44,884 nt of DNA from Nitrospira sp. bin75. GTDB taxonomy: Bacteria; Nitrospirota; Nitrospiria; Nitrospirales; UBA8639. How positions within the stretch are numbered: position 1 is the stretch's first letter; every line of letters begins with the position of its first letter. Where the stretch lies: positions 1 through 44,884 of the forward strand of contig MPMZ01000022.1 in NCBI GenBank assembly GCA_002238765.1, given 5' to 3'. Positions 10,004-24,032 of this stretch are shown here, piece by piece. Made by a program: the position numbers and the translations under genes. Below the pieces are notes generated by a model. The model searched no databases. It was given only the letters and a program-made list of their open reading frames with translations, and was not told the DNA's origin.

Positions 10004-10702
10004 ATGATGAAAGCCGTCGCCTTGGCCAGTGGAGGACTCGATTCGACCGTGACGGCCGCAATGGCTCGTCACGACGGATACGCCCTGTACCTGCTCACGA
10101 TCAGGTATGGACAGCGCCATCACGCTGAAATTCAAAAGGCCCGGGAGATTGCAGCGTGGTTGGGAGCAGCCGAACATAAAATTCTTCAATTGGATCTGCA
10201 CGAATTCGGTGGCTCTGCCCTGGTCGGCGCGGGAGACGTTCCGAAGAATCGCTCGGACCGGGAACGGGAGACCGGCATCCCATCCACGTATGTTCCGGCA
10301 CGAAACACGATATTCCTGTCGTTGGCTTTAGCCTATGCCGAAGTCGTCGATGCTTCCTGTATCTTTATCGGGGCCAATGTCTTGGATTATTCCGGATACC
10401 CGGATTGTCGCCCTGAGTTTTTGCACGCGTTTGAACGGGTGGCCCGGCTGGGCACGAAAAAGGGGACGGATGGCCAAACGGTACAGATTAAAGCGCCGCT
10501 TCTGCTATTGAGTAAGACCCAGATCATTCAACAAGGCCGGGTTTTGGGAGTCCCCTTCGAGTTGACCCACAGTTGCTATGACCCCCGCGAGGATGGCGCG
10601 GCATGCGGGCGATGTGACAGTTGCATGATCCGGTTACAGGGTTTTCGCGATGCGGGCCTTCAGGATCCGGCACCGTATGCGACGAGAGTTTTGGGTTCGT
10701 AA
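10004..10702 (+). CDS. queC: 7-cyano-7-deazaguanine synthase (QueC)
   Basis: A 232-residue PP-loop ATP pyrophosphatase that converts 7-carboxy-7-deazaguanine and ammonia to preQ0, the precursor of queuosine in tRNA and of 7-deazaguanine DNA modifications. The PP-loop SGGLDST is at residues 9-15, followed by IRYGQRHHAEI, STYVPARNTIFLSLAL, GANVLDYSGYPDCRPEF and the zinc-binding cysteine cluster CYDPREDGAACGRCDSC near the end. ATG codons at 10004 and 10007 are both possible starts; neither has a strong Shine-Dalgarno. No other queuosine gene is in the window. Confidence 0.95.
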   Translation: MMKAVALASGGLDSTVTAAMARHDGYALYLLTIRYGQRHHAEIQKAREIAAWLGAAEHKILQLDLHEFGGSALVGAGDVPKNRSDRERETGIPSTYVPARNTIFLSLALAYAEVVDASCIFIGANVLDYSGYPDCRPEFLHAFERVARLGTKKGTDGQTVQIKAPLLLLSKTQIIQQGRVLGVPFELTHSCYDPREDGAACGRCDSCMIRLQGFRDAGLQDPAPYATRVLGS

Positions 10703-10756
10703 TTGTCGCCTGGAAGATCGGTGACGGAAGGCGCGCAGATGGCAGGAGGTTTCTGG

Positions 10757-11182
10757 ATGAAACTGGTGTGGCTCGGTCTGGCAGTGTTGACCTGTTTGAT
10801 CGGGTGCTCGGACGAGCAGGGTGAACCGGGTTCAACGCATGCCGCTCACGAAGGCGTCACGCAGGAGGCCGTGGCCTCCCTGGATGCTCCGAAACCGGTG
10901 CCTGAAGAATATGAAACAGGGGAAGAACGGTTCAATGCACTGTGCGCGCGCTGTCATGGCCGGGAAGGCCGGGGGACGAACATGGGGCCGCCGTTGGTGC
11001 ATAAAATTTATGAGCCTTCCCATCATGCCGACTTTGCGTTCATGCGAGCTGCCAAACAAGGCGTCCGGGCCCATCACTGGAAATTCGGGAATATGCCCCG
11101 AATTTCAGAAGCCACGCCCGACGACGTGACAAAGATCATTGCCTACATCCGGTGGTTGCAACGGCAGGCAGGAATTTTTTGA
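10757..11182 (+). CDS. Lipoprotein monohaem cytochrome c
   Basis: A 141-residue class I cytochrome c. The first 17 residues are a lipoprotein signal ending in the lipobox LIGC (Cys17), so the protein should be anchored by a lipid on the periplasmic side of a membrane. The haem is attached at CARCH (Cys63, Cys66, His67), and Met113 in FGNMPRIS is the probable distal ligand. The start at 10757 is set by AGGAGG seven bases upstream. It probably shuttles electrons in a periplasmic respiratory chain; the partner is not visible. It is the last core gene before the accessory island. Confidence 0.88.
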   Translation: MKLVWLGLAVLTCLIGCSDEQGEPGSTHAAHEGVTQEAVASLDAPKPVPEEYETGEERFNALCARCHGREGRGTNMGPPLVHKIYEPSHHADFAFMRAAKQGVRAHHWKFGNMPRISEATPDDVTKIIAYIRWLQRQAGIF

Positions 11183-11551
11183 AGGCAATACGTTTTGAGA
11201 GCGGCTAGCAGGCCTCTCCTCGGACTTTATCCACAAACCCCTCCTTGCAAGAGGAATTATATACATAACGGTGGGAGCGTTACGTAGTAAGTCGCACAGC
11301 TTCTGCCCACTTTCCAGGTCCAAGGTCTGGAGAGAAGACGAATTCATCTGCGTCACGACTCCCCTCGGACACAAGAAATTCGTTGATGTTCTCTGCCAAC
11401 TGGCCTGGTTGAGTAAACAGCCTTATCTCCCTGTTCAGTCTTTCCATCATGGTCTCCCGCCTCCCATACTCCCACTATACTCGGATTGGCAAGTTCCGCT
11501 ATACTCCCGTCTTTACATGTCTTTCAAGAAAGCCTGTGAGCGAAGATTCCT
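11183..11551. other. Non-coding left border of the accessory island
   Basis: I see no convincing gene here; the open frames are short and have no ribosome-binding site or recognisable product. A short inverted repeat, CCTC...GAGG around 11236-11250 followed by AATTATAT, could be a weak end-of-transcript hairpin for the cytochrome gene. The sequence CTATACTC occurs twice, at about 11474 and 11502. Composition shifts from GC-rich core to less GC-rich DNA across this stretch. Confidence 0.5.
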
Positions 11552-12097
11552 ATGGAGCAAGAGACGTGTTTCCCCGGTGTCAGATTCCCTCCATGGGTCG
11601 GAGAGAACTACCGTCGTAACAGTAGGTTTGGGCTTCGTCTGCTCGTGCTTGGTCTGTACCACTATGGAGACCCCGGCTTTGAAAGTTCTGTTCTCACGAG
11701 TGAAGCAGTACGCTTCTGGGGTCAAAAGGACCCCAGTTCATATTTCACGAAAATTGCTCAAGTCCTGCTCGGGGAGAAAGATCGCTTAAGTGATGGGGCT
11801 CGTACTGACGTATGGGAAGACATCGCTTTCTATAACTACATTCAGACATTGGTGGACGGACCTCGAACCCTTCCATCACCAGCCGAATGGAAAGCAGCAG
11901 AAGTGCCATTCATGGTCGTGCTTGGCGCGTTGCAACCCAACGCCGTATTGGTTCTGGGCAAGGGGCTTCGGGACCACATTCGTTGTACGCCTCCAGACGT
12001 AGCATTTGAGCAGATCTACGACCCGTCATATTCACGCATGAGCGTTGCCAATAGCATTCCGGTCTTGCAGGATCTGTTGCGCCGTGCGATCCAGTAG
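11552..12097 (+). CDS. Putative uracil-DNA-glycosylase-fold protein of unknown function
   Basis: A 181-residue soluble protein. I recognise only a loose resemblance to the uracil-DNA glycosylase superfamily: an N-terminal strand and loop LRLLVLGLYHYGDPG (about residues 28-42), a central WEDIAFYNYIQTLVDGPRT, and a C-terminal strand PNAVLVLGKGLRDHI like the histidine-loop region of that fold. The catalytic role cannot be assigned. An in-frame TGA lies five codons before the ATG at 11552, so the start cannot be far upstream. It is in the defence island, 5' to a GIY-YIG fragment in the -1 frame and near vsr; related stand-alone proteins of this kind occur beside restriction-modification genes, which is why I place it there functionally. 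Confidence 0.5.
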   Translation: MEQETCFPGVRFPPWVGENYRRNSRFGLRLLVLGLYHYGDPGFESSVLTSEAVRFWGQKDPSSYFTKIAQVLLGEKDRLSDGARTDVWEDIAFYNYIQTLVDGPRTLPSPAEWKAAEVPFMVVLGALQPNAVLVLGKGLRDHIRCTPPDVAFEQIYDPSYSRMSVANSIPVLQDLLRRAIQ

Positions 12098-12255
12098 GTC
12101 TCGGGGTTTACATTCTATACAGACACGATGAGATTATTTTCATTGGCACATGCGCGGCCAACATTCGGGCTAGGTTGTTTGACCATCTAAGTGGAAACGG
12201 ACAGACAGATTCTCATCAAATTCGATGGCCATGGATGGTTAGGTGTGGAAGTTAA
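12055..12255 (+). pseudogene. GIY-YIG nuclease-like fragment without a start codon
   Basis: This frame is open from 12055 (just after a TAG) to a TAA at 12253-12255 and encodes about 66 residues. It contains a clear GIY-YIG core: GLGVYILYRHDEIIFIGT, then the arginine helix IRARLFDHLSG. No ATG, GTG or TTG lies before the domain, and the frame ends soon after the second motif, before the usual catalytic glutamate. It overlaps the end of the UDG-like gene in the -1 frame and meets vsr tail to tail. The simplest reading is a degraded fragment; a frameshifted fusion to the upstream gene is the alternative. Confidence 0.55.
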
Positions 12256-12728
12256 ATATTGTTCCGATGGAAGTCAGACGAAAATCTGGGTTTTCGGCCA
12301 CAAAGCCAGTTTGCGAAACGATCTATGGTTTGCGAAGTCCGATTGTTCCGCAAGGAGCATTCCCACACGATAGCAACTCGCCATCCGTGCTTCCTCAGGA
12401 GGGCAATTCTATTGCGATCACGTAAAATGTTGTCCATGAATTTTGCTTTCCAGAACTTCACTCTGGTTGCGGGTGTGGTGGCAAAGCGGCATCCCGGATG
12501 CCGATGCCAGAAACACCCATGAACAAAGCACACTGCTTGGTATTTCGGGAAAACCAAGTCCGGTTTTCCCGGAAGTGCTGACCCGTGCAGTCGATATCTG
12601 AAGCCTCGTGCGTGCAGGGCCTTGCGCAGGATCAACTCGGGTTGGGTGTTCCTGCTTCTGATGCCCGACATCATGCGAGACCGCGTCGTGAAGTCAACGA
12701 TATCCGTCAATGGCGTGCTCGCATTCAA
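12252..12728 (-). CDS. vsr: Very-short-patch repair endonuclease (Vsr)
   Basis: A ~158-residue Vsr endonuclease, which nicks next to T:G mismatches formed by deamination of 5-methylcytosine. Recognisable in order: VDFTTRSRMMSGIRSRNTQP (the N-terminal family signature), GFRYRLH, the catalytic aspartate in LPGKPDLVFPK, the metal and zinc-associated VCFVHGCFWHRHPGC, and the lysine/asparagine helix FWKAKFMDNILRDR. There is no in-frame ATG before MMSG; the start is a TTG at 12728 or at 12710, the second giving MTDIVDFTT, closest to known family members. It is divergent from the cytosine methyltransferase gene with about 50 bp between, so they probably share a control region and function. Confidence 0.93.
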   Translation of the reverse strand: MNASTPLTDIVDFTTRSRMMSGIRSRNTQPELILRKALHARGFRYRLHGSALPGKPDLVFPKYQAVCFVHGCFWHRHPGCRFATTPATRVKFWKAKFMDNILRDRNRIALLRKHGWRVAIVWECSLRNNRTSQTIDRFANWLCGRKPRFSSDFHRNNI

Positions 12729-12778
12729 GGCACGTTGGTTTCCGATCGAGTTACTGTGCCAGTTAGAAATTGAATTGT

Positions 12779-14383
12779 ATGCTAAAACCTGTTGCCATTG
12801 TTGACCTTTTTTCAGGTCCTGGGGGTCTTGGAGAAGGCTTTTCGGCCTTCATCGACTCTGCGGGAAATCACCCGTTTTCGATGCAGGTTTCGATCGAAAA
12901 GGAACGGTCAGCTTATGAAACCCTGCTTCTTCGAAGTTTTTTGCGCAAATTCGAATCTGGTTTCCCGCCAGAGTACTACTCATTTCTGAACGGCGAAATC
13001 ATGGAGCCAAATTGGAATGTTCTCTATCCGAAAGCGTGGCAGGCCGCAATTGATGAAACTGTGTGTATGGAACTCGGGGATGAACAGACAACTCAATTTC
13101 TCAATCAGCGTATACGTGAAATCCGCAGGAATTATGGCGACCGCAGCATCCTGATTGGCGGCCCCCCTTGTCAAGCCTACTCTATTGCAGGTCGTTCCCG
13201 GAACGCAGGAATTGTCGATTACGACCCCCTCAAGGACAAGAGAACTTTCCTGTACCGCGAGTATGTAGATGCCCTTGCGAAGCTCAAGCCGGCAATGTTT
13301 GTCATGGAAAACGTCAAGGGTATGCTGTCATCCAAGATTGAAGGCGGGATATTCCAGAAGATCATGTCGGATTTGAAGTCAGCGGCAGGGCCTAACAGCT
13401 ACAGGCTGATTCCACTGACACCTTCGATGAGCAATGATGGATCGGAATTCGATTCCTCTCCCAATGATTTCATGGTACGAACGGAAGAATATGGAATCCC
13501 TCAGGCACGTCACCGCGTGATTGTTGTCGGTCTGCGAAGAAACATTGCCCAAGGCTTGCCAGTGGAGCTCCTGCCTTGTCTCCGGAAATACCAGAGGCAT
13601 GTTACGGTAAATGATGTCATTGGTGCCATGCAACCGCTTCGTAGCGGGCTGAGTCGAGGAGATTGTGTGGCTGCTTGGCGTGAAGTACTGCAGAATGCAA
13701 TCGAAATTGTTTGGAGTAATACACTGCTTCTTCCGGCAAACGAACAGCGGATGATTCAGCAATCGCTGAGACGTTATCTATCTCGATTTCCGGATGACTT
13801 GCCTTCTAATCGTATGGGGCAAAGTAGCGTGAAGTTGCCCAAGACCTGTCCGTTGAAGCTCAGGAAGTGGATTGTGGACGAGAAGCTGAAAGCTTTGCCC
13901 AACCACGAGACTCGTGGGCATATGCCGGCAGACCTCGTACGATATTTGTATGTATCTGTTTTCGGCGAGAGTTTCAACCGGTCACCGAAATCATCTGAGT
14001 TTCCACCCACCTTGGCTCCCTTTCACAATAACTGGCTGTCTGGAAAGTTTCCTGATCGGTTTAGGGTGCAGGTTGCGCATCGACCGGCAAGTACGATTAC
14101 TAGCCATATATCGAAAGATGGTCACTATTACATCCATCCAGACCCTAGGCAGTGCCGTAGTTTGACTGTCCGCGAGGCGGCAAGATTGCAAACGTTTCCG
14201 GACAACTACCTTTTCAAGGGCAATCGCACCGCGCAATACATTCAAGTGGGAAACGCGGTTCCACCATTTCTTGCTTGGCAGATTGCAGGAAGTCTCTCGA
14301 AAATCTTCGAGTTTCTGGAACGACCACACGGGGTTGCTGGAAAGAACAGAAAAAGGTCCAGTATCCCTTTGGAAGCGGCATGA
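12779..14383 (+). CDS. DNA (cytosine-5)-methyltransferase (Dcm/HhaI type)
   Basis: A 534-residue C5-cytosine methyltransferase. Motif I is DLFSGPGGLGEGF (residues 9-21, AdoMet binding), motif IV is GGPPCQAYS with the catalytic Cys131, motif VI is FVMENVKGM, motif VIII is RHRVIVVGLR, and motifs IX-X are LTVREAARLQTFPD and QVGNAVPP. The long stretch between VIII and IX is the target-recognition region; the recognition site cannot be read from it. The ATG at 12779 gives MLKPVAIVDLF. The gene begins a run of five overlapping genes (GHKL ATPase, Z1, DUF4420, AIPR), and its stop overlaps the next ATG (ATGA). It presumably supplies self-protection for that restriction-like system. Confidence 0.95.
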   Translation: MLKPVAIVDLFSGPGGLGEGFSAFIDSAGNHPFSMQVSIEKERSAYETLLLRSFLRKFESGFPPEYYSFLNGEIMEPNWNVLYPKAWQAAIDETVCMELGDEQTTQFLNQRIREIRRNYGDRSILIGGPPCQAYSIAGRSRNAGIVDYDPLKDKRTFLYREYVDALAKLKPAMFVMENVKGMLSSKIEGGIFQKIMSDLKSAAGPNSYRLIPLTPSMSNDGSEFDSSPNDFMVRTEEYGIPQARHRVIVVGLRRNIAQGLPVELLPCLRKYQRHVTVNDVIGAMQPLRSGLSRGDCVAAWREVLQNAIEIVWSNTLLLPANEQRMIQQSLRRYLSRFPDDLPSNRMGQSSVKLPKTCPLKLRKWIVDEKLKALPNHETRGHMPADLVRYLYVSVFGESFNRSPKSSEFPPTLAPFHNNWLSGKFPDRFRVQVAHRPASTITSHISKDGHYYIHPDPRQCRSLTVREAARLQTFPDNYLFKGNRTAQYIQVGNAVPPFLAWQIAGSLSKIFEFLERPHGVAGKNRKRSSIPLEAA

Positions 14384-15876
14384 TGAGTTTCGAACAGACA
14401 AAATGCAAAACAATTACGCCTAGAGCAGATATTTTGATTGAGAGTATGCGAGACATTGGCTATTCGCTGCAAACTGCAATTGCCGATATCATCGATAATT
14501 CCATTACTGCAGGATCTAGCAGAATTGAGTTGTTGGTAAATACTCATTCAGATAAACCAGCGATAGGGATTATTGATGACGGAACGGGAATGTCGGAAGA
14601 GGAACTTCTCGCTGCAATGCGGCTTGGTTCGAAGAATCCTCTAGACGGTCGCTCCAAGGATGATCTCGGACGGTTTGGCTTGGGACTGAAGACGGCATCC
14701 TTTTCGCAGTGCAGGCATCTCACAGTTCTAACACGCAGAGATGGGAGAACATCCGGCGCCATTTGGGACCTCGATAGAGTTGCCTGTAACAATGACTGGC
14801 TTGTAGAGATGGTTTCCAGCGCAGAACGCATTCCGTGGGCAGACAAGCTTGGTGAGAGCGGAACCCTTGTGGTCTGGCAGAAGCTGGACAGGCTCGTGGG
14901 CGGGGAAAACGAAGGTGCTGTGCAAAATTCCATCCGGCAGATTGCCGAAACGGCGACACATATCGAACTGGTCTTTCACCGTTTTCTTGCGGGCAAGGCC
15001 GGTGTGAAGAAGATCCAAATACTGCTGAACAATCGTAACCTTGAGCCATTTGATCCGTTTCACTCGTGGCATCCGGCAACAATTCTGAGAGCGGAGGAAG
15101 TATTCCACTTGGGAAACCAGGAAATCCGGATTCAGTCTGTGACGCTTCCACACCACGGGAAGATCTCATCAGAAGAATGGAATCGCTACGCGGGACCGGA
15201 AGGATATGTCAGAAATCAGGGATTCTACGTTTACCGCGGCAAACGTCTCATTATCCATGGCACATGGTTCAACCTTGCAAAGCAGACAGAGCTGACGAAA
15301 CTAGCTAGGGTCCGTATTGATATCCCGAATGATATGGATTCCAACTGGAAGATTGATCTCAAGAAGTCGTCCGCGCGTCCTCCGGCACCGGTACGTGATC
15401 GCCTCAGAAAAATCATTGCTGAAATCGGGGCGACCTCGAAGCGTGTCTACACTTCGAAGGGAACTCGGTTGATTGAAAGTAACAGATTGCCGGTCTGGAG
15501 ACGTTTTCAGGATAAGAATCTGATTTCCTATGGTTTAGACCCTGAGCATCCTGCTTTCACTAGTTTTTCGGAAAGACTGCCAGAAGATCAGCGAAAGGAA
15601 TTCGGAAAGCTTCTCGAACTGGCAAGCTCAACACTACCAATCGATTCGTTGTTCTCGGATGTGAGTTCTAATCCCGAAAGTGTATATGCAAAGACCATGG
15701 ATGATGAGACATTTGCCGCCATTGTGCGTTCAACCTGTCTGAAGCTCCGGACTGTCGATCAAACTTTTGAGGAAATTGAAACAATGATGTCCTCAGCTGA
15801 ACCATTCCAATCACAATGGCAGATAGCTTCGCAAATTCTGAAAGATATTCAACAGAAGGAAGTGAATGATGGGTAA
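14380..15876 (+). CDS. GHKL-family ATPase (MutL/Hsp90/MORC-like) of a defence operon
   Basis: A 498-residue protein with a histidine-kinase/Hsp90-type ATP-binding domain in its first ~150 residues. The N box is IADIIDNSITAG (Asn40 binds magnesium), the G1 box is DDGTGM (Asp66-Met71) and the G2 box is GRFGLGLKTASF (from Gly97). No kinase, MutL endonuclease or other catalytic motif follows; the rest is a beta-rich S5-like part (YVYRGKRLIIHGTWF) and a charged helical tail. I start it at the ATG at 14380, which overlaps the methyltransferase stop, although the frame is open further upstream. Iyer, Abhiman and Aravind (2008) described MutL/MORC-type ATPases in restriction-modification operons; this is such a case. 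It probably acts as an ATP-driven clamp or remodeller for the nucleases downstream. Confidence 0.9.
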   Translation: MMSFEQTKCKTITPRADILIESMRDIGYSLQTAIADIIDNSITAGSSRIELLVNTHSDKPAIGIIDDGTGMSEEELLAAMRLGSKNPLDGRSKDDLGRFGLGLKTASFSQCRHLTVLTRRDGRTSGAIWDLDRVACNNDWLVEMVSSAERIPWADKLGESGTLVVWQKLDRLVGGENEGAVQNSIRQIAETATHIELVFHRFLAGKAGVKKIQILLNNRNLEPFDPFHSWHPATILRAEEVFHLGNQEIRIQSVTLPHHGKISSEEWNRYAGPEGYVRNQGFYVYRGKRLIIHGTWFNLAKQTELTKLARVRIDIPNDMDSNWKIDLKKSSARPPAPVRDRLRKIIAEIGATSKRVYTSKGTRLIESNRLPVWRRFQDKNLISYGLDPEHPAFTSFSERLPEDQRKEFGKLLELASSTLPIDSLFSDVSSNPESVYAKTMDDETFAAIVRSTCLKLRTVDQTFEEIETMMSSAEPFQSQWQIASQILKDIQQKEVNDG

Positions 15877-18616
15877 CTTGCAAGACCTACAAAATATGGT
15901 CAGCGCTTGGCTCGCAAGCCGTATGCCAACTCCCGAAATGATCAGAGAGCAAATTGCGAGGGTCCGCGTAATTTATCCGGAAGTAACTGACGAAGAGGCC
16001 GAAGCTCTCGCTCGTGAGTTTGAAACCATTCATGGCATCACGATGTCTATCGGCTCAACACTACAGAAAAATATTGATTTTGAGCCGTGGCTCGATAGTG
16101 CAAAAGCGAAAAACGCTATCGACTTCTATTTCTGGGAGCGGTATCAAAAATTGCTAGTTACGAAAGGATTCTCGGCACGGGTTCTGGCTTCGTTTGCTAA
16201 TGTCACAGACCGCACACTTGGACTGCTCGAAAACCCGAAAAGGGAAGGAAAATGGGATCGCCGTGGTATGGTGGTTGGCCATGTACAGTCGGGGAAAACG
16301 GCGAATTACACTGGACTGGTCTGCAAGGCTGCAGATGCCGGATACAAGGTGATTATCGTGATCGCCGGAATTCACAATAATCTGCGTAGTCAGACACAGA
16401 TGCGCCTTGATGAAGGGTTCACCGGATTTGACAGCGCAAGGCTACTTTCGAATCAACCCGACACCAGCCAGGTTATTGGTGTCGGACGTTACGACTCTAG
16501 GCGCCGACCAAGTGTCTTCACGAATTCATTGCGGGATTTCAACAAGGCGACGGCGACAAGTGTCGCTACTCCGTTGGAGAATCTGAAAACGCCTGCTCTA
16601 TTCGTAATCAAGAAGAATTCGTATACCCTGAAAAACCTCCTTGAATGGCTGAGGGAACACAATGCACGCCGTGGTGGCTCATCAATCAGTGAGCCGATGC
16701 TTCTGATTGATGACGAAGCAGACAATGCATCCATCAATATCGGAAGTGGAAGAGATGAAGTGTCTGCCATAAACGGACAGATTCGTCAACTTCTCGAGAT
16801 CTTCGATCGAAGTTGCTACATCGGGTACACTGCTACACCCTTTGCCAACATCTTTATTGATCCAGATAGCGATGACGAGATGTTCGGGGACGATCTTTTC
16901 CCCAGGGATTTTATCGTCAGCCTCGATCCTCCGGACAATTACTTCGGTCCATCACTTGTTTTTGGCAACGATATCGAAGGCGCTGAACAGGGACAGTTCA
17001 TTCGTCATATTGAAGACAATGAGGATCTACTCCCGTTGAGGCACCTTGTCAGTCACGATGTTGTAGCCCTGCCGGACAGTCTCCGGACTGCGGTGCGCAC
17101 CTTTATCGTGGCTCGCGCAATCCGTTTGGCACGCGGGCAGACAGGCAAGCATAATTCGATGCTCGTGAACGCTTCTCGCTTCAACAATGTACAAAACCGG
17201 CTACGGGACCAGATACATGTACTGGTCGAAGACATCAGACACAGCATTAGGGTAAATGGTGCCCTGTCGCAAAAGCTGGCGCTGACTGATTCTGAAATCG
17301 CAGCCCTCCATGAGGTGTTTATCAGAGAATATGAGCGTGCAAGCGGATTATCCTGGGGGAGCGTGCAACAGAAATTGCTGGAAAGTATCGCGCCCGTTAA
17401 CGTTGTGGTCGTGAATAGAATGTCTTCGAGTTCTCTAAATTATGCCGAGCATGCAACATCGGGACTTAACGTTATTGTGGTTGGCGGTTACTCCCTATCC
17501 CGGGGGATGACACTTGAGGGATTGAGCATTAGCTACCTTCTCCGCAACTCCATGATGTATGACACACTCATGCAGATGGGGCGCTGGTTTGGATATCGCC
17601 CCGGCTACGAGGATTTGTGCCGTATCTGGATGCCCGAAGAGGCGGAAGGGTGGTATGCCCATATCGCCAATTCAATCGAGGAACTTCGCGATGAACTCCG
17701 TCGCATGGAAGCGGTGAGTGCCACACCTAAAGAATTCGGCCTCAGGGTGCGCAGCCATCCGGACAGATTACTCGTCACGGCAAGAAACAAGATGGGTTCC
17801 AGTAGACCAATTCGTATATCAGTGGGTCTCGCAAATGAGTTTATCGAGACAGCTATCTTATGGCGTAATTCTGAAAACCTTGAAACGAATCGTCGGGCAG
17901 CGATTACTTTAGGCAAAAAAATACGGAATGCTGGCTTGTTGAATTCTGCAAACGCGGAAGATGCAGCTAGTGGAAAGCTCGTACATCAGGTGCCAGCCGA
18001 CCTGATCATGGAGTTTCTCCTGACTTTCCAGAATCATCCTTCAGCCTATTTGACGGATACGGAGCCCGTGCGTGGTTACATTGAAGATCGCATCAGTAGT
18101 GAACTCTCTGAATGGGATGTCCTGTTTCCAGGGCTTGCCGAGAGATCCGAAAAGTCGCTTGTAAGCGATATTCTGGGGTTCAGAATCATATGTCAGCGCC
18201 GCAGTCCAGGCAAACGAAGCACCAAGGACCTGCTCATGATCACAAACAAACAGCGTGTAGCTTCGCGTGGAATAGAAAAAATCGGACTGACACAGGATGA
18301 AATATCAGAGGCGGAGGAAAGATACCGCAATGAAACAACTTCATTGCATTCCGGTCGGCATCTTAACTTCCCTGACCGGATTTACCGGCGGCTCAGGAAG
18401 AAGCCGCTTCTTGCTGTCCATTTGCTGGCGATTGGACAAGAAGGTGAAGATCTGAGCGGTAGTTCTCCAATTGTAGCATGGAGTATCAGTTTTCCACAGA
18501 CTTCAGTTGAAGAAAGCAATGCAACGTACTTGGTGAATCCCACATGGTTGCTTGAACGATACGGCCCTGAAGACGATGAAGACGAAATGGCGGGAGATGA
18601 TGGCCGAAATGACTGA
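15866..18616 (+). CDS. Z1-domain P-loop ATPase, putative restriction effector
   Basis: A 916-residue protein with a superfamily-2-like ATPase core and a Z1 domain. The Walker A motif is GHVQSGKT (residues 138-145), Walker B is the DDEAD box starting at Asp282 (LLIDDEADNASIN), followed by the TATPF motif (IGYTATPFANI). The Z1 part contains VVGGYSLSRGMTLEGLS and QMGRWFGYRPGYEDLCRIW, the latter similar to helicase motif VI with arginine fingers. Its ATG-ATG start at 15866 overlaps the end of the GHKL gene by 11 bp and is preceded by AAGGAAG. The Z1 domain is known from restriction-like operons with GHKL ATPases, but its biochemical activity is not established; DNA translocation is an inference. 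Confidence 0.9.
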   Translation: MMGNLQDLQNMVSAWLASRMPTPEMIREQIARVRVIYPEVTDEEAEALAREFETIHGITMSIGSTLQKNIDFEPWLDSAKAKNAIDFYFWERYQKLLVTKGFSARVLASFANVTDRTLGLLENPKREGKWDRRGMVVGHVQSGKTANYTGLVCKAADAGYKVIIVIAGIHNNLRSQTQMRLDEGFTGFDSARLLSNQPDTSQVIGVGRYDSRRRPSVFTNSLRDFNKATATSVATPLENLKTPALFVIKKNSYTLKNLLEWLREHNARRGGSSISEPMLLIDDEADNASINIGSGRDEVSAINGQIRQLLEIFDRSCYIGYTATPFANIFIDPDSDDEMFGDDLFPRDFIVSLDPPDNYFGPSLVFGNDIEGAEQGQFIRHIEDNEDLLPLRHLVSHDVVALPDSLRTAVRTFIVARAIRLARGQTGKHNSMLVNASRFNNVQNRLRDQIHVLVEDIRHSIRVNGALSQKLALTDSEIAALHEVFIREYERASGLSWGSVQQKLLESIAPVNVVVVNRMSSSSLNYAEHATSGLNVIVVGGYSLSRGMTLEGLSISYLLRNSMMYDTLMQMGRWFGYRPGYEDLCRIWMPEEAEGWYAHIANSIEELRDELRRMEAVSATPKEFGLRVRSHPDRLLVTARNKMGSSRPIRISVGLANEFIETAILWRNSENLETNRRAAITLGKKIRNAGLLNSANAEDAASGKLVHQVPADLIMEFLLTFQNHPSAYLTDTEPVRGYIEDRISSELSEWDVLFPGLAERSEKSLVSDILGFRIICQRRSPGKRSTKDLLMITNKQRVASRGIEKIGLTQDEISEAEERYRNETTSLHSGRHLNFPDRIYRRLRKKPLLAVHLLAIGQEGEDLSGSSPIVAWSISFPQTSVEESNATYLVNPTWLLERYGPEDDEDEMAGDDGRND

Positions 18617-19613
18617 TCCATGGAAGCCAATTCAGCCGCCAGACCAGTCCACTAATGTCAGCGGTCGCAGAGTCGACCCCGCCTTGTCATGGGATCTGTT
18701 CTGGGGTTTGGATACAAATCGGAACTGCCTGCTGATCCTGAAGCATGACAGGGAAATGAAATTCGACCGACGTCTACCTAAGTTGCGAGGCGTCGAGGTA
18801 GAGACCTTCATCCCGGACACTGGAAGTCGGAACCTCTTGGTCATCCGCCTTGAGGACAATGAGAATCGCGAAATTTTTCATCGGCTTTGCCTTGACATAA
18901 TTGCCTCAGTCGAACTCGCCAAGTCCGAAGAAGAAGCCATTGGACGGTTTATCGGAAGAACTTGGCGCTGGCACCGGCTGCTGCAAAGCGGACGAGATGG
19001 CCGTTTGTCGGACGAGGAGCAGAAAGGCCTTCTGGGTGAATTGGGTGTCCTGCAACGCATTCTTATCCCGGTCATGGGTGCGCGGGCTGCAGTCAATAGC
19101 TGGACGGGACCACACGATGCACCGAAGGATTTCGAGGTCGGACGAATCTGCATTGAGGCTAAGGCGCGACGTGGTGCAGCTACTCCTCATGTTGTGATTT
19201 CGAGCGAGCATCAACTTGATACAGGTGGAATTGATGTCCTTTTTCTATACGTAGCAGAGGTTGCCGCAACGTCGGCTGGGGACAGAAATGCTGTCACCAT
19301 CACGGATGTTGCCAGGCAAATAAAGGAGGAAATAGAAACGCAGGACGTATTTACAGTTGAACTTTTCGAGGAGGGGCTGTTCATGGTCGGTTTTGACTGG
19401 GCAGATGGCTATTCCGACAAGCAGTGGTTACTTGGCCGGGATTCTCTCTTCGAGGTCCGGGAAAATTTTCCGCGCGTCACACCTCTGATGGTTCCCGCTG
19501 GTGTCAACAATGTAAGATACGCAGTTTCCTTGCCGGATTGTGAACCATTCTGCACAAGTATTGAGAACCTGAAGTCCCTGATTTCAGGAGGATCGCATGG
19601 CAATCGGCCTTAA
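18597..19613 (+). CDS. DUF4420 PD-(D/E)XK-motif protein, putative nuclease
   Basis: About 338 residues. A nuclease-like core is visible in the middle: GLLGELGVLQ with Glu148, then KDFEV with Asp178 and IEAKAR with Glu187 and Lys189, matching the E...D...ExK pattern of PD-(D/E)XK enzymes (numbering from the ATG at 18597). The family is known as PD-(D/E)XK motif protein / DUF4420. The exact start is unclear: ATGs at 18576, 18597, 18600 and 18609 are in frame, and all overlap the end of the Z1 gene. The stop overlaps the AIPR start by 17 bp. It is the best candidate for the DNA-cutting subunit of the system. Confidence 0.85.
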   Translation: MMAEMTDPWKPIQPPDQSTNVSGRRVDPALSWDLFWGLDTNRNCLLILKHDREMKFDRRLPKLRGVEVETFIPDTGSRNLLVIRLEDNENREIFHRLCLDIIASVELAKSEEEAIGRFIGRTWRWHRLLQSGRDGRLSDEEQKGLLGELGVLQRILIPVMGARAAVNSWTGPHDAPKDFEVGRICIEAKARRGAATPHVVISSEHQLDTGGIDVLFLYVAEVAATSAGDRNAVTITDVARQIKEEIETQDVFTVELFEEGLFMVGFDWADGYSDKQWLLGRDSLFEVRENFPRVTPLMVPAGVNNVRYAVSLPDCEPFCTSIENLKSLISGGSHGNRP

Positions 19614-21618
19614 TCAATTCGGCAAGGAACTCTTGCAAGACATCTTGGCGGAAGCAGATGCAGCGGGTCGATTTTACGAAGATGTTTTCTTCGAGAAGTT
19701 CTGCGAGTACTTGATTGATGCTGGCGAACTTGTTACCGCGGATCGTGCTGCCTATCTTGGCCCACCCAACACGGGCATGCGCGTTGACGGCTACGGCGGG
19801 GACCCGCGTGATGCATCCGGCACCCTCAGCCTCATCATTGCAGACTTCAATCAAGCTGAAGAAGTCGGCCGACTGATTGGCAGCGACATGAATGCGATTT
19901 TCCAGCGTCTGTCGAGGTTTCTTCGCAAGGCGATGGATATAGAATGGCGAAACAGACTTGAAGAAACCAGCTCGGGATTTGGGCTTGCAAACCTGATCGA
20001 TCAACACTGGAAGAGCGTGACTAGGATTCGCATGTTCTTGGTTAGTAACCGTGAACTTAGCGAACGTGTTGATGGGCGGGAAGCGGAAGAATTCGACGGA
20101 CGAATCATTACCTACAGTGTATGGGATATCAGGCGACTCCATCACTTTGTCACTGCCGGGCACGGCAGAGAAAAAATCGAGATTGATCTTCAGGTTGACT
20201 TCGGCAGGGCACTACCCCTGCTTCCTGCTCATCTTCCTGCGGGAGATTATGAGTCCTATCTGGCAGTTGTTCCAGGACAAACTCTGGGAGCCATTTATGA
20301 CAAGTGGGGTGCAAGGCTGCTGGAACAGAACGTCCGGGTATTCCTTCAGGCTCGCGGGAATGTGAACAAGGGCATCAGAAACACCCTGCAAAATGACCCA
20401 TCCAAGTTTTTTGCCTACAACAATGGGATCACGGCAACCGCTGAAGCCGTTACTACAGAAAAAAGGAGTGGCCAATTGTTTCTGACTGGTCTCAAGAATT
20501 TTCAGATTGTCAATGGTGGACAAACCACTGCATCCATCCATTTAGCATATCGGAACAACAAGGATGATTTGTCACATGTGTTTGTCCAAATGAAGTTATC
20601 CATTGTAGATCCGAAACTTTCGGATGAAATCGTTCCGAAAATTTCAGAATATGCAAATAGCCAGAATCGCGTGAACGCAGCCGATTTTTTCTCGAATCAC
20701 CCATTTCATGTTCGTATGGAGGAATTTTCGCGGCGAATCTATGCACCCTCGCCGGATGGAACCTTCCGCCAAACGAAGTGGTTTTATGAGCGAGCTCGAG
20801 GGCAGTATGCGGATGCCATCTCACTTCTCACGCAAGCTCAGCGCAAAAAGTTTGACCTTGAAAACCCGCGGTCGCAATTCTTCTCCAAGACAGACCTCGC
20901 CAAATATATCAATGTCTGGGAGGGCCATCCTGATACGGTAAGTATGGGAGCACAGAAGAACTTCGCACAATTCGCCAGCGATGTGGGGCAAGCGTGGGGA
21001 AAAAATCAAGATAGTTTCAATGAAAACTACTATCGAGAGGTAATTGCGAAGGCGATCGTCTTCAAGTCGACTAGCAAGATTGTTTCGAATCAGCCGTGGT
21101 ACCAAGGTGGCTATCGAGCAAATATCGTTGCCTATGCCATAGCCAAAATGTCTCATGACGTTACACAGATGAAACGTGCCGTCGATCTTGAAGTTGTCTG
21201 GAAACGTCAGGCAATCAGTTCATCAATGGAAGCATCGCTAGCCGGCGTTGCGGAGAAAGTACATGAAGTTTTGATTAAACCTCCGCCCGGTATAAGCAAC
21301 GTGACTGAATGGGCCAAGAAACAGGCATGTTGGGATCGTGTTCGCTCGCTTGCAATTGAGTGGCGGGTGAGTTTCCTTGAAGAACTTGTCACACAGGAAC
21401 AGCACAAATCCACTAAACGAAATGCGCAAAAAGAACAGAAAATGCTGAATGGCATAGAAGCACAAGCACTGGTTGTAAAGGCTGGTGTAATGTATTGGAA
21501 GAAAGCTCTTGTGTGGGGTAAGAAGAATAAACTTCTGTCACCAAAAGATATTGGAATTCTGAATGTGGCAGCAGGAACTACGCGACAAATACCCTCCGCA
21601 GTCCCGGCGCATCATTGA
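19597..21618 (+). CDS. AIPR-family protein (abortive infection phage resistance)
   Basis: A 673-residue protein of the AIPR family (PF10592). The recognisable core is DPSKFFAYNNGITATAEAV (about residue 266 on) followed by FQIVNGGQTTASIHLAYR, then ISEYANSQNRVNAADFFSNHPFH; this block is diagnostic of AIPR. The N-terminal third (YEDVFFEKFCEYLIDAGEL, then LSLIIADFN) looks like a second nuclease-type fold with an acidic strand, but I cannot assign catalytic residues with certainty. A strong AGGAGG precedes the ATG at 19597. It ends the operon. AIPR proteins are named for phage-resistance loci; their mechanism is not well defined. Confidence 0.9.
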   Translation: MAIGLNQFGKELLQDILAEADAAGRFYEDVFFEKFCEYLIDAGELVTADRAAYLGPPNTGMRVDGYGGDPRDASGTLSLIIADFNQAEEVGRLIGSDMNAIFQRLSRFLRKAMDIEWRNRLEETSSGFGLANLIDQHWKSVTRIRMFLVSNRELSERVDGREAEEFDGRIITYSVWDIRRLHHFVTAGHGREKIEIDLQVDFGRALPLLPAHLPAGDYESYLAVVPGQTLGAIYDKWGARLLEQNVRVFLQARGNVNKGIRNTLQNDPSKFFAYNNGITATAEAVTTEKRSGQLFLTGLKNFQIVNGGQTTASIHLAYRNNKDDLSHVFVQMKLSIVDPKLSDEIVPKISEYANSQNRVNAADFFSNHPFHVRMEEFSRRIYAPSPDGTFRQTKWFYERARGQYADAISLLTQAQRKKFDLENPRSQFFSKTDLAKYINVWEGHPDTVSMGAQKNFAQFASDVGQAWGKNQDSFNENYYREVIAKAIVFKSTSKIVSNQPWYQGGYRANIVAYAIAKMSHDVTQMKRAVDLEVVWKRQAISSSMEASLAGVAEKVHEVLIKPPPGISNVTEWAKKQACWDRVRSLAIEWRVSFLEELVTQEQHKSTKRNAQKEQKMLNGIEAQALVVKAGVMYWKKALVWGKKNKLLSPKDIGILNVAAGTTRQIPSAVPAHH

Positions 21619-21851
21619 AATTCTGAAGAGACTCGAATCCCAGGGATTTTCTGAGAAAGCCACGATAGATCATTGAACAGGTAATCAGCCACGCTGAATG
21701 CTGGCAGAGAAAAACCTCCTTCCTGCTCCCGCCGGAACGTGTCACCAATTTGGTGAAAACAGAAAAGGGACGAATGGGAACAAAGAGGGGATGATATGTA
21801 GAGAAGGGAAGCGATGGCCTCTTTCTTGACCCTGTGCCATGCCGAAGCTGG
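21619..21851. other. Non-coding right border of the accessory island
   Basis: No gene is visible between the AIPR stop and the end of the convergent Lrp-like gene. A 13-bp inverted repeat, CACCAATTTGGTG, is at 21743-21755 and is too short, without a T-run, to call a terminator. I found no repeat shared with the left border by eye. Confidence 0.4.
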
Positions 21852-22094
21852 TTACTCGTAGAGCGTGTAGACCAGGTGGGTATCGGTTTGCGCGACGCCC
21901 TCAATGGCATGGATTTTAGTGAGAACCAATTGCGTCAAGGCTTCCTGGCTCGTCACTTCCACTTTGACAAAAATATCGGGCTTCCCCCAACAGGCGTCAA
22001 TCGTTTTAATTTCCTCGATTTCCGCCAATAGATTTTTCACGTTTGCCGTTTGTCCAGGCAGCACGTTGATAAGAACATAGGCACTTTCCGGCAT
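21852..22094 (-). CDS. Stand-alone Lrp/AsnC ligand-binding (RAM) domain protein
   Basis: An 80-residue protein that consists only of the effector-binding alpha-beta sandwich of Lrp/AsnC regulators: AYVLINVLPGQTANVKNLL, a central ACWGKPDIFVKVEV and a C-terminal DTHLVYTLYE. There is no helix-turn-helix. Such single-domain proteins form ring-like oligomers and may bind amino acids; the ligand here is not known. AAGGGAG lies eight bases before the ATG at 22094. It is on the minus strand, downstream of the pepF-like gene in the same direction with about 140 bp between. Confidence 0.88.
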   Translation of the reverse strand: MPESAYVLINVLPGQTANVKNLLAEIEEIKTIDACWGKPDIFVKVEVTSQEALTQLVLTKIHAIEGVAQTDTHLVYTLYE

Positions 22095-22235
22095 GTGTCA
22101 AACTCCCTTTTTCAAATTCCCGCACTTCACGAGTATCCGACAACGAACCTTAAAAACAGGCTAACGCAACAGGTGTCTTCAAATCAAGGCAAGATGCCGT
22201 AGGCGTGTGAGCGGGCGAACGGTTCGTCTCCTTTC

Positions 22236-24032
22236 TCAAGTTGTTTTGTCCACGGTTTTTTCGAGCGCTTCAACGAGTTCCCGGATGCGGTTGAACCCTG
22301 CTTGCCAGAATGATTTTTTACAGAGATCAATGCCGAGAGGCTTCAGCATCGTCTCAGGGCTTTGGGAACCCCCGTGGCTCAACAGTTCGAGGTACCGCGG
22401 GATGAAAGGCTTCCCCTCTTTTTTATAGCGTTGAAAGAGTGCGAGAACCAGCAAGTTTCCAAAACTGTACGCATAGCAGTAAAACGGGCTTCGGAAAATA
22501 TGGGGGATGGCCAACCATTCCCATTGAAAAGCCTTGGAGATGGTCATGGTGCGACCGAATTGTTCTCTGAGAAGGTGAACATACGCTTGGGCAAGCCCAT
22601 CAACGGTCGTGCCTTGAGCGATGAGATCATGGGCCTGGTTTTCGAATTCGACAAAATAGGCTTGCCGGAGAATCGTGGCGTACAGGTCATCGAGTTGTCC
22701 CAATAACAACCGTTGTTTCACTCTTGCCCCTGCGGCATCCGCAAGCAGGGCATCGGAGAGAAGCTGTTCTCCGAACACGGAGGCGGTTTCGGCGAGAGGC
22801 AGCGTGGCGTGAAACGTGAACACCGAATGTTTCCGGGCCATCATGCTGTGTACGGCATGGCCAAGTTCATGGGCTAACGTGGCGACGTCTCTGGCGTCCC
22901 CGGAATAGTTCAACAGGACGTACGGAGTGAGAGACGGCAACACGCTATAGCAAAATGCTCCGCCCATTTTCCCGGGGGAGGGGGCCGCGTCAACGTGCCG
23001 TTCAGCAAAGACCTGGCGGGCGTGATCTGCGAGGGTGGGAGAAAATTGTTGATAGGCGTCGAAAACCAGTTTGAGGGCTTGATCGAAGGGATAGACGCCT
23101 TTTTTGATCCTTGGCGGGGCATACAGATCGTAACGAGTCATTTTCGGGAAACCGCAGATCCTGGCCTTGATCCGAAAATATTCCTGGAACACGTCCCGGT
23201 TGTCTCGACAGGTTTGAAGCAGGGTGGAGACCGCCTTGTCGGGGATGTCGTTGTCAAGGTTCCGAACGGCAATGGGGCTGGCATAACCGCGAAGATCCAA
23301 CCTCTCGTTTTTCCAATCCGTGACAAGGGCCTTATAGATATCCCCAAGGGTATCGGAATGATTCGAATACACCCGAAAAAGTTCGTCGTAAGCCTGCCGG
23401 CGCACGCGGGCGGAGGGATCTCGAAAATGGACGGTCAAGTGTTCGCGAGACAGCGGCTGTGAGCCGTATCGTGATTTCAATTGGAACGTCAAGCCATTGG
23501 TGATCACGTCGTAGAGGCTGTCGAGGGCTTCCCGTCCGGTCGTGTTTTTGACGTTGATGATTTGTTCTTCGGCTTCGGACAACGTGTGCTGTTTGATTCG
23601 GCGGAGTGATTCCAAATGGTAGCGGTATGTTCCTGCATGGCCCAGCAACCGCCTGGCCGTCCGGTCTCCGACTCGTTGCCACCACAAATCGAAAAAGAGC
23701 GTCCGGTTGGAAAGAGGGAGCAGGTGTTTCCTGACTTGAGTCTCGAATGCCCTCGCACGCTGGTTTTGGGTATTTTGAGCGAACCATAGCTGAGCGTAGG
23801 CCGTCAGCCTGGAAGTTTCAGCCGCAATCGTTTCTCTAAGCTGCAAGCCTTTGAGCAAAGTACGGGCGGGCAGTGTCGAGGAAAGGTTTTTGCGAAGTCT
23901 TTCCAGCGATCGCACGTGATCGTCCAGTGCCCGGGAACGGGTTTCGAGATCTTTGTCCGGATGCCGGAGCAGGTCTTTCAGGTTCCATTGGGGAAGGCCG
24001 GTTGTGTTGGGTCCTGCATGTAATCGTGGCAT
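22236..24032 (-). CDS. pepF: M3-family oligoendopeptidase (PepF-like)
   Basis: A 598-residue zinc metallopeptidase of family M3B, which cleaves short peptides in the cytoplasm. The HExxH zinc motif is in TLAHELGHAVHSMM (around residues 385-392), and the third ligand is expected in the following helix ETASVFGEQLLSD. Other family features are YFRIKARICGFPKMTRYDLYAP and the C-terminal SPFYCYAYSFGNLLVLALF. No signal peptide is present. The first ATG at 24032 gives a normal N-terminus (MPRLHAGPNTTGLPQWNL, with the typical W.L.DL start). It is divergent from the molybdate-type regulator gene, with a 180-bp AT-rich intergenic region. Confidence 0.93.
   Translation of the reverse strand: MPRLHAGPNTTGLPQWNLKDLLRHPDKDLETRSRALDDHVRSLERLRKNLSSTLPARTLLKGLQLRETIAAETSRLTAYAQLWFAQNTQNQRARAFETQVRKHLLPLSNRTLFFDLWWQRVGDRTARRLLGHAGTYRYHLESLRRIKQHTLSEAEEQIINVKNTTGREALDSLYDVITNGLTFQLKSRYGSQPLSREHLTVHFRDPSARVRRQAYDELFRVYSNHSDTLGDIYKALVTDWKNERLDLRGYASPIAVRNLDNDIPDKAVSTLLQTCRDNRDVFQEYFRIKARICGFPKMTRYDLYAPPRIKKGVYPFDQALKLVFDAYQQFSPTLADHARQVFAERHVDAAPSPGKMGGAFCYSVLPSLTPYVLLNYSGDARDVATLAHELGHAVHSMMARKHSVFTFHATLPLAETASVFGEQLLSDALLADAAGARVKQRLLLGQLDDLYATILRQAYFVEFENQAHDLIAQGTTVDGLAQAYVHLLREQFGRTMTISKAFQWEWLAIPHIFRSPFYCYAYSFGNLLVLALFQRYKKEGKPFIPRYLELLSHGGSQSPETMLKPLGIDLCKKSFWQAGFNRIRELVEALEKTVDKTT

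Follow-up and report, generated by a model that had tools for sequence, protein, structure and literature searches.

A start-less GIY-YIG gene fragment, probably of a Dcm-Vsr-associated nuclease, at the edge of an MZA-like island in Nitrospira sp. bin75

The window analysed here is a stretch of 44,884 nucleotides of contig MPMZ01000022.1 from Nitrospira sp. bin75. It contains an island that holds a UDG-like gene, a sequence which we call the GIY-YIG relic, vsr, dcm and four genes similar to mzaB–mzaE. The features are listed below.

11185..21845, no strand: island of 10.66 kb, missing in genus relatives, which have an empty site there
11552..12097, plus strand: UDG-superfamily-like ORF, 181 aa, full length, with changed family motifs (GES to GLY, HPS to DPS)
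12055..12255, plus strand: whole frame holding the GIY-YIG relic, running from stop to stop, with no start codon before the motif
12100..12246, plus strand: GIY-YIG relic with GVY (17-19), FIG (29-31), Arg40, His44 and a tail alignable with AH2 gp33 up to Cys64
12253..12255, plus strand: stop codon of the relic frame, which shares bases with that of vsr (12252-12254, minus strand); putative break point of the nuclease gene
12252..12728, minus strand: vsr, very short patch repair endonuclease (TIGR00632, 131.8 bits)
12770..14383, plus strand: DNA cytosine-5 methyltransferase (dcm)
14275..15876, plus strand: MzaB-like ATPase (ORF as listed; the true start is probably further in)
15866..18616, plus strand: MzaC-like Z1-domain protein
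18552..19613, plus strand: MzaD-like protein
19597..21618, plus strand: MzaE-like AIPR protein

In the genus relatives that lack the island (loci L030, L031, L034, L036 and others), position 11184 is joined to about position 21846, with two bases between them in L034. The flanks of the empty site are a cytochrome c-like gene and an M3-type peptidase gene, both named by eye, and some relatives carry differing short inserts there. No tRNA or Rfam RNA was detected within 10500-23000. PADLOC matched four island genes to MzaB, MzaC, MzaD and MzaE, though two scores against the NCBIfam equivalog models stayed below the cut-offs (342.7 of 850 bits for MzaB and 605.9 of 1500 bits for MzaC). Systems composed of Z1, PD-(D/E)XK, AIPR and cytosine methyltransferase proteins with low similarity to mzaBCDE have been described, according to the consulted part of PMC9523054, and Z1, PD-(D/E)XK-type, AIPR and cytosine methyltransferase genes likewise adjoin the relic. 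The same order of vsr (minus strand), dcm (plus strand), ATPase, Z1, PD-(D/E)XK and AIPR genes is found on an Agrobacterium plasmid (L113).

The frame at 12055-12255 encodes 66 amino acids between two stop codons, and its peptide is identical to the one read in the earlier note. As that note had it, no in-frame ATG, GTG or TTG precedes the motif, and the frame lies in the -1 register relative to the upstream 181-aa ORF, which ends at 12097. The first in-frame TTG comes only after the YIG motif. The overlap that the note claimed with the upstream gene is confined to the first part of the frame (12055-12097), which is non-homologous; the GIY-YIG similarity begins at about 12100, past the upstream stop. 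The relic also fails to show coding-like codon usage: it scores -0.154, whereas the 5th percentile for in-frame pieces taken from 23 window genes is 0.023, with only 51 relic codons in the comparison; in neither start codon nor codon usage does the frame resemble a functional gene. Two promoter-like matches fall in the relic (1.3 expected), and no terminator-like site is listed within it. The possibility, named in the note as a refutation, that the frame is noise antisense to vsr is contradicted by the coordinates. Because vsr occupies 12252-12728 on the minus strand and shares with the frame just the overlapping stop codons, the two do not lie antisense to each other, and the nuclease ends where vsr begins.

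The GIY-YIG superfamily is characterized, in the consulted part of PMC1564403, by N-terminal GIY and YIG motifs, a central arginine and a C-terminal glutamate in a domain of about 100 amino acids. The frame has GVY and FIG, with Phe in place of the Tyr of YIG, and its Arg40 aligns with the central arginine. The stop codon comes before the catalytic glutamate, as had been observed earlier, and the frame falls short of the length of the domain. The Pfam GIY-YIG model (PF01541) assigned 16.3 bits to the frame (E 0.012), which is under the gathering cut-off of 22.6 bits, and the relic site was absent from the results of a Pfam GIY-YIG search of its own genome. We therefore built a custom profile from 15 GIY-YIG cores, excluding the frame; six were taken from genome loci (two of them UvrC), eight were plasmid proteins and one was gp33 of Burkholderia phage AH2. 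With this profile the frame scored 30.3 bits, with an E value of 3.7e-7 in a set of 16,094 six-frame ORFs from the collected loci, window copies included. The runners-up outside the profile, window copies and a relic in L083 aside, were in L002 (16.1 bits) and L103 (14.4 bits). Dinucleotide shuffling of the sequence (120 windows, 129,599 ORFs) yielded no ORF of at least 16 bits and a maximum of 12.7 bits.

As L018, AH2 and L021 had joined the profile through their likeness to the frame, leave-out profiles were also made. The frame scored 27.5 bits without L018 and 20.9 bits without L018, AH2 and L021, 19.0 bits (12.2 bits for shuffled sequence) when L023 was additionally removed, and 17.1 bits with the plasmid family alone, while a profile of just the three members found by Pfam missed it. 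Residues G17, Y19, G31, R40 and H44 are invariant in an alignment of seven sequences (7/7 for R40). The GIY-YIG core that had been recognized by eye is confirmed by these scores, and the frame is genuinely derived from a GIY-YIG protein.

Searches of the phylum genomes, plasmids, phages, viral contigs and PDB turned up no close homologue of the frame. Among 290 phylum genomes the best non-self match had an E of 4.7e-4 per genome, and the matched frame was not GIY-YIG by eye; plasmids and phages gave weak matches only, the best being AH2 (E 0.05), and the viral contigs and PDB each gave zero matches. The closest full-length match found is AH2 gp33, which is called an ‘excinuclease’ of GIY-YIG type in the consulted part of PMC3483164. 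The two sequences have in common GVYIL, Y/F-I/V-G, IRAR, HL and a WxW...C tail, whereas gp33 is an intact protein of 191 aa with 36 Pfam bits and the frame contributes a fragment of about 50 residues with neither start nor Glu. Their local alignment contains two gaps, one of seven residues and one of a single residue, and reaches a score of 78; no score above 52 was obtained when the residues were shuffled 5,000 times. For the 18-residue tail beyond the motif, the match to gp33 was equalled by 5 of 5,000 shuffles; the corresponding numbers for Kozakia (504), L124 (1,287) and L018 (3,076) amount to no tail match. On this basis, similarity to gp33 probably extends as far as residue 64 (12246), which is five bases before the vsr stop codon. 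The missing 3′ half has no match in any frame on either strand of 11980-12560.

A tblastn search with AH2 gp33 retrieved 14 plasmid records, three phage records (two of which are AH2) and six of the 290 phylum genomes. Eighteen loci were examined (14 plasmid, two distinct phage and the two strong phylum places), and the four weak phylum matches were left uncounted. Within the stretch fetched, a cytosine methyltransferase gene and/or vsr is near the AH2-family GIY-YIG gene in 17 of these loci (L028, L075-L083, L124, L125, L128 and L130-L133), of which three are Methylocystis plasmids of one kind with identical gene order. The sole exception is Haladaptatus L129. These genes are carried by plasmids, by one phage and one phage-labelled contig, and by two genome contigs from the order to which the window belongs. 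AH2 gp33 itself adjoins vsr in a module of cytosine methylase, KasI-like endonuclease, GIY-YIG and Vsr, as given in the consulted part of PMC3483164; KasI-like proteins are also present in the Methylocystis, Kozakia and Sphingomonas (L128 and L132) plasmids and in a faecal phage-labelled contig (L133). The relic likewise has vsr and dcm next door. The orientation differs, however, the GIY-YIG gene and vsr being co-directional in AH2 and convergent in the window. Outside the AH2 paper, the portions of the literature searched gave no description of a GIY-YIG protein as a partner of Dcm-Vsr, which is not proof of absence.

The earlier note had recommended looking for an intact GIY-YIG gene beside Z1 operons. 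We scanned 19 MZA-like stretches with the profile, nine of them chromosomal and ten on plasmids (from 10 of 31 plasmid records in which MzaC was matched), and none held a GIY-YIG sequence at the level of the relic, the best score of 12.0 bits being inside the shuffled range. Set against the 17 of 18 AH2-family loci that have dcm and/or vsr as neighbours, this indicates an association with Dcm-Vsr and not with Z1.

The UDG-like label of the upstream gene is weakly upheld, as one homologue matches PF03167 below the cut-off (E 0.0032) and the window protein has no Pfam match. The protein aligns over its full length with all six homologues (29-38% identity). Two of these come from genomes, one of the same family and one of the same order, two from contigs (Bacteroidetes and Aeromonas) and two from enterobacterial plasmids. 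All six have GES as the first motif and HPS or HPC as the second, where the window protein has GLY and DPS. By its sequence the gene looks complete in length yet functionally changed, as would be the case for a pseudo-enzyme or a decaying gene, and with both motifs lost this flank of the island appears decayed. On an Atlantibacter plasmid, a possible GIY-YIG protein (L002:7054-7800, minus strand, 16.1 bits) lies about 520 bases from a UDG-like homologue. The profile listed none near the homologues L003 and L005-L009, and with one weak case in L002 only, there is no steady link between UDG-like and GIY-YIG genes.

A rival reading, for which the earlier note had named an indel, takes the UDG-like ORF and the GIY-YIG frame for two parts of a single fusion protein that a recent indel or a sequencing error has divided. 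The two frames do adjoin in the -1 register, but the UDG-like protein is full length, and its six homologues all end at about the same place with none running on into a GIY-YIG domain. One indel could not yield a whole protein in any case, because the GIY-YIG half is already truncated. We regard the fused protein as extremely improbable. Just as improbable is continued expression of the fragment, for example from a non-standard start or coupled to the UDG-like gene, to give a small peptide that binds DNA or has a regulatory role. Although 66 codons are open and the five invariant family residues are kept, the start codon and the catalytic half are absent and the codon score is below the 5th percentile for pieces of the window genes.

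A chance resemblance, in which a noncoding frame merely looks like GIY-YIG, would be in keeping with the low Pfam score, the negative own-genome search, the lack of a close homologue and the codon usage. It is nevertheless very unlikely, since none of the shuffled ORFs approaches the score of the frame, the leave-out profiles still place the frame above unrelated ORFs, the five residues are invariant and the AH2 similarity appears to extend past the motif. More weight can be given to a relic of another GIY-YIG family, for example one adjacent to type I restriction genes like the same-genus L018, although we find this fairly unlikely as well. L018 (genome G229) has 48% identity to the frame over 34 residues, with an alignment score of 67 compared with 78 for AH2. 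It is an intact ORF of 156 aa in a genome without vsr at E 1e-10. Against this reading, the tail of the relic is matched by AH2 alone, and the neighbours of the relic are vsr and dcm, as in the AH2 family.

We therefore believe that the frame is probably what is left of the 5′ part of a dead GIY-YIG nuclease gene, and that this gene most likely encoded a Dcm-Vsr accessory nuclease of the AH2 gp33 type. The missing start, the missing half and the codon score together mark it as a dead fragment. The family assignment, made from about 50 residues, is less sure than the GIY-YIG identity. Of the earlier view that a nuclease remnant was left when the module was rearranged, the remnant is borne out by a homology that halts at the vsr stop, the lost Glu half, the absent start and the codon usage, and the removal during a rearrangement is only plausible. 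The 3′ half with the catalytic glutamate would have been lost in the rearrangement that brought the 3′ end of vsr to its present place. The relic would make no active nuclease and is presumably not expressed. Today it would be the spacer between the convergent UDG-like gene and vsr, on the outer side of the MZA-like defence operon, and it looks like the outcome of ordinary gene decay.

A wider idea is offered tentatively, and we think it unlikely to hold: the AH2-type GIY-YIG protein, often accompanied by a KasI-like enzyme, could be a third, dedicated partner of Dcm-Vsr that has hardly been described, and the relic could reflect its loss when a nuclease-bearing Z1/AIPR (MZA-like) system took over the Dcm-Vsr pair. 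By itself the relic, as a dead gene fragment, matters little. It is a scar that can still be read where a defence island has its border, and it has pointed to a pattern that merits a survey, namely nucleases of one GIY-YIG family beside dcm and/or vsr. What such a nuclease contributes where a methylase, a restriction enzyme and a mismatch nicking enzyme are its neighbours can be tested.

A parallel decay is seen in the AH2 gp33 family on the Rhizobium ruizarguesonis plasmid pRL11, where a GIY-YIG relic (L083:1495-1933) adjoins vsr. It differs from the relic of the window in being far closer to the plasmid family (106 bits) and broken by frameshifts rather than by end loss. On a Polaromonas plasmid, a vsr-like sequence beside the GIY-YIG gene is in two pieces in different frames (L076:2084-2463) and is apparently a broken vsr. 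A GIY-YIG gene from the same genus as the window (L126:4109-4579) lies downstream of an ORF that resembles, by eye, a type I specificity subunit.
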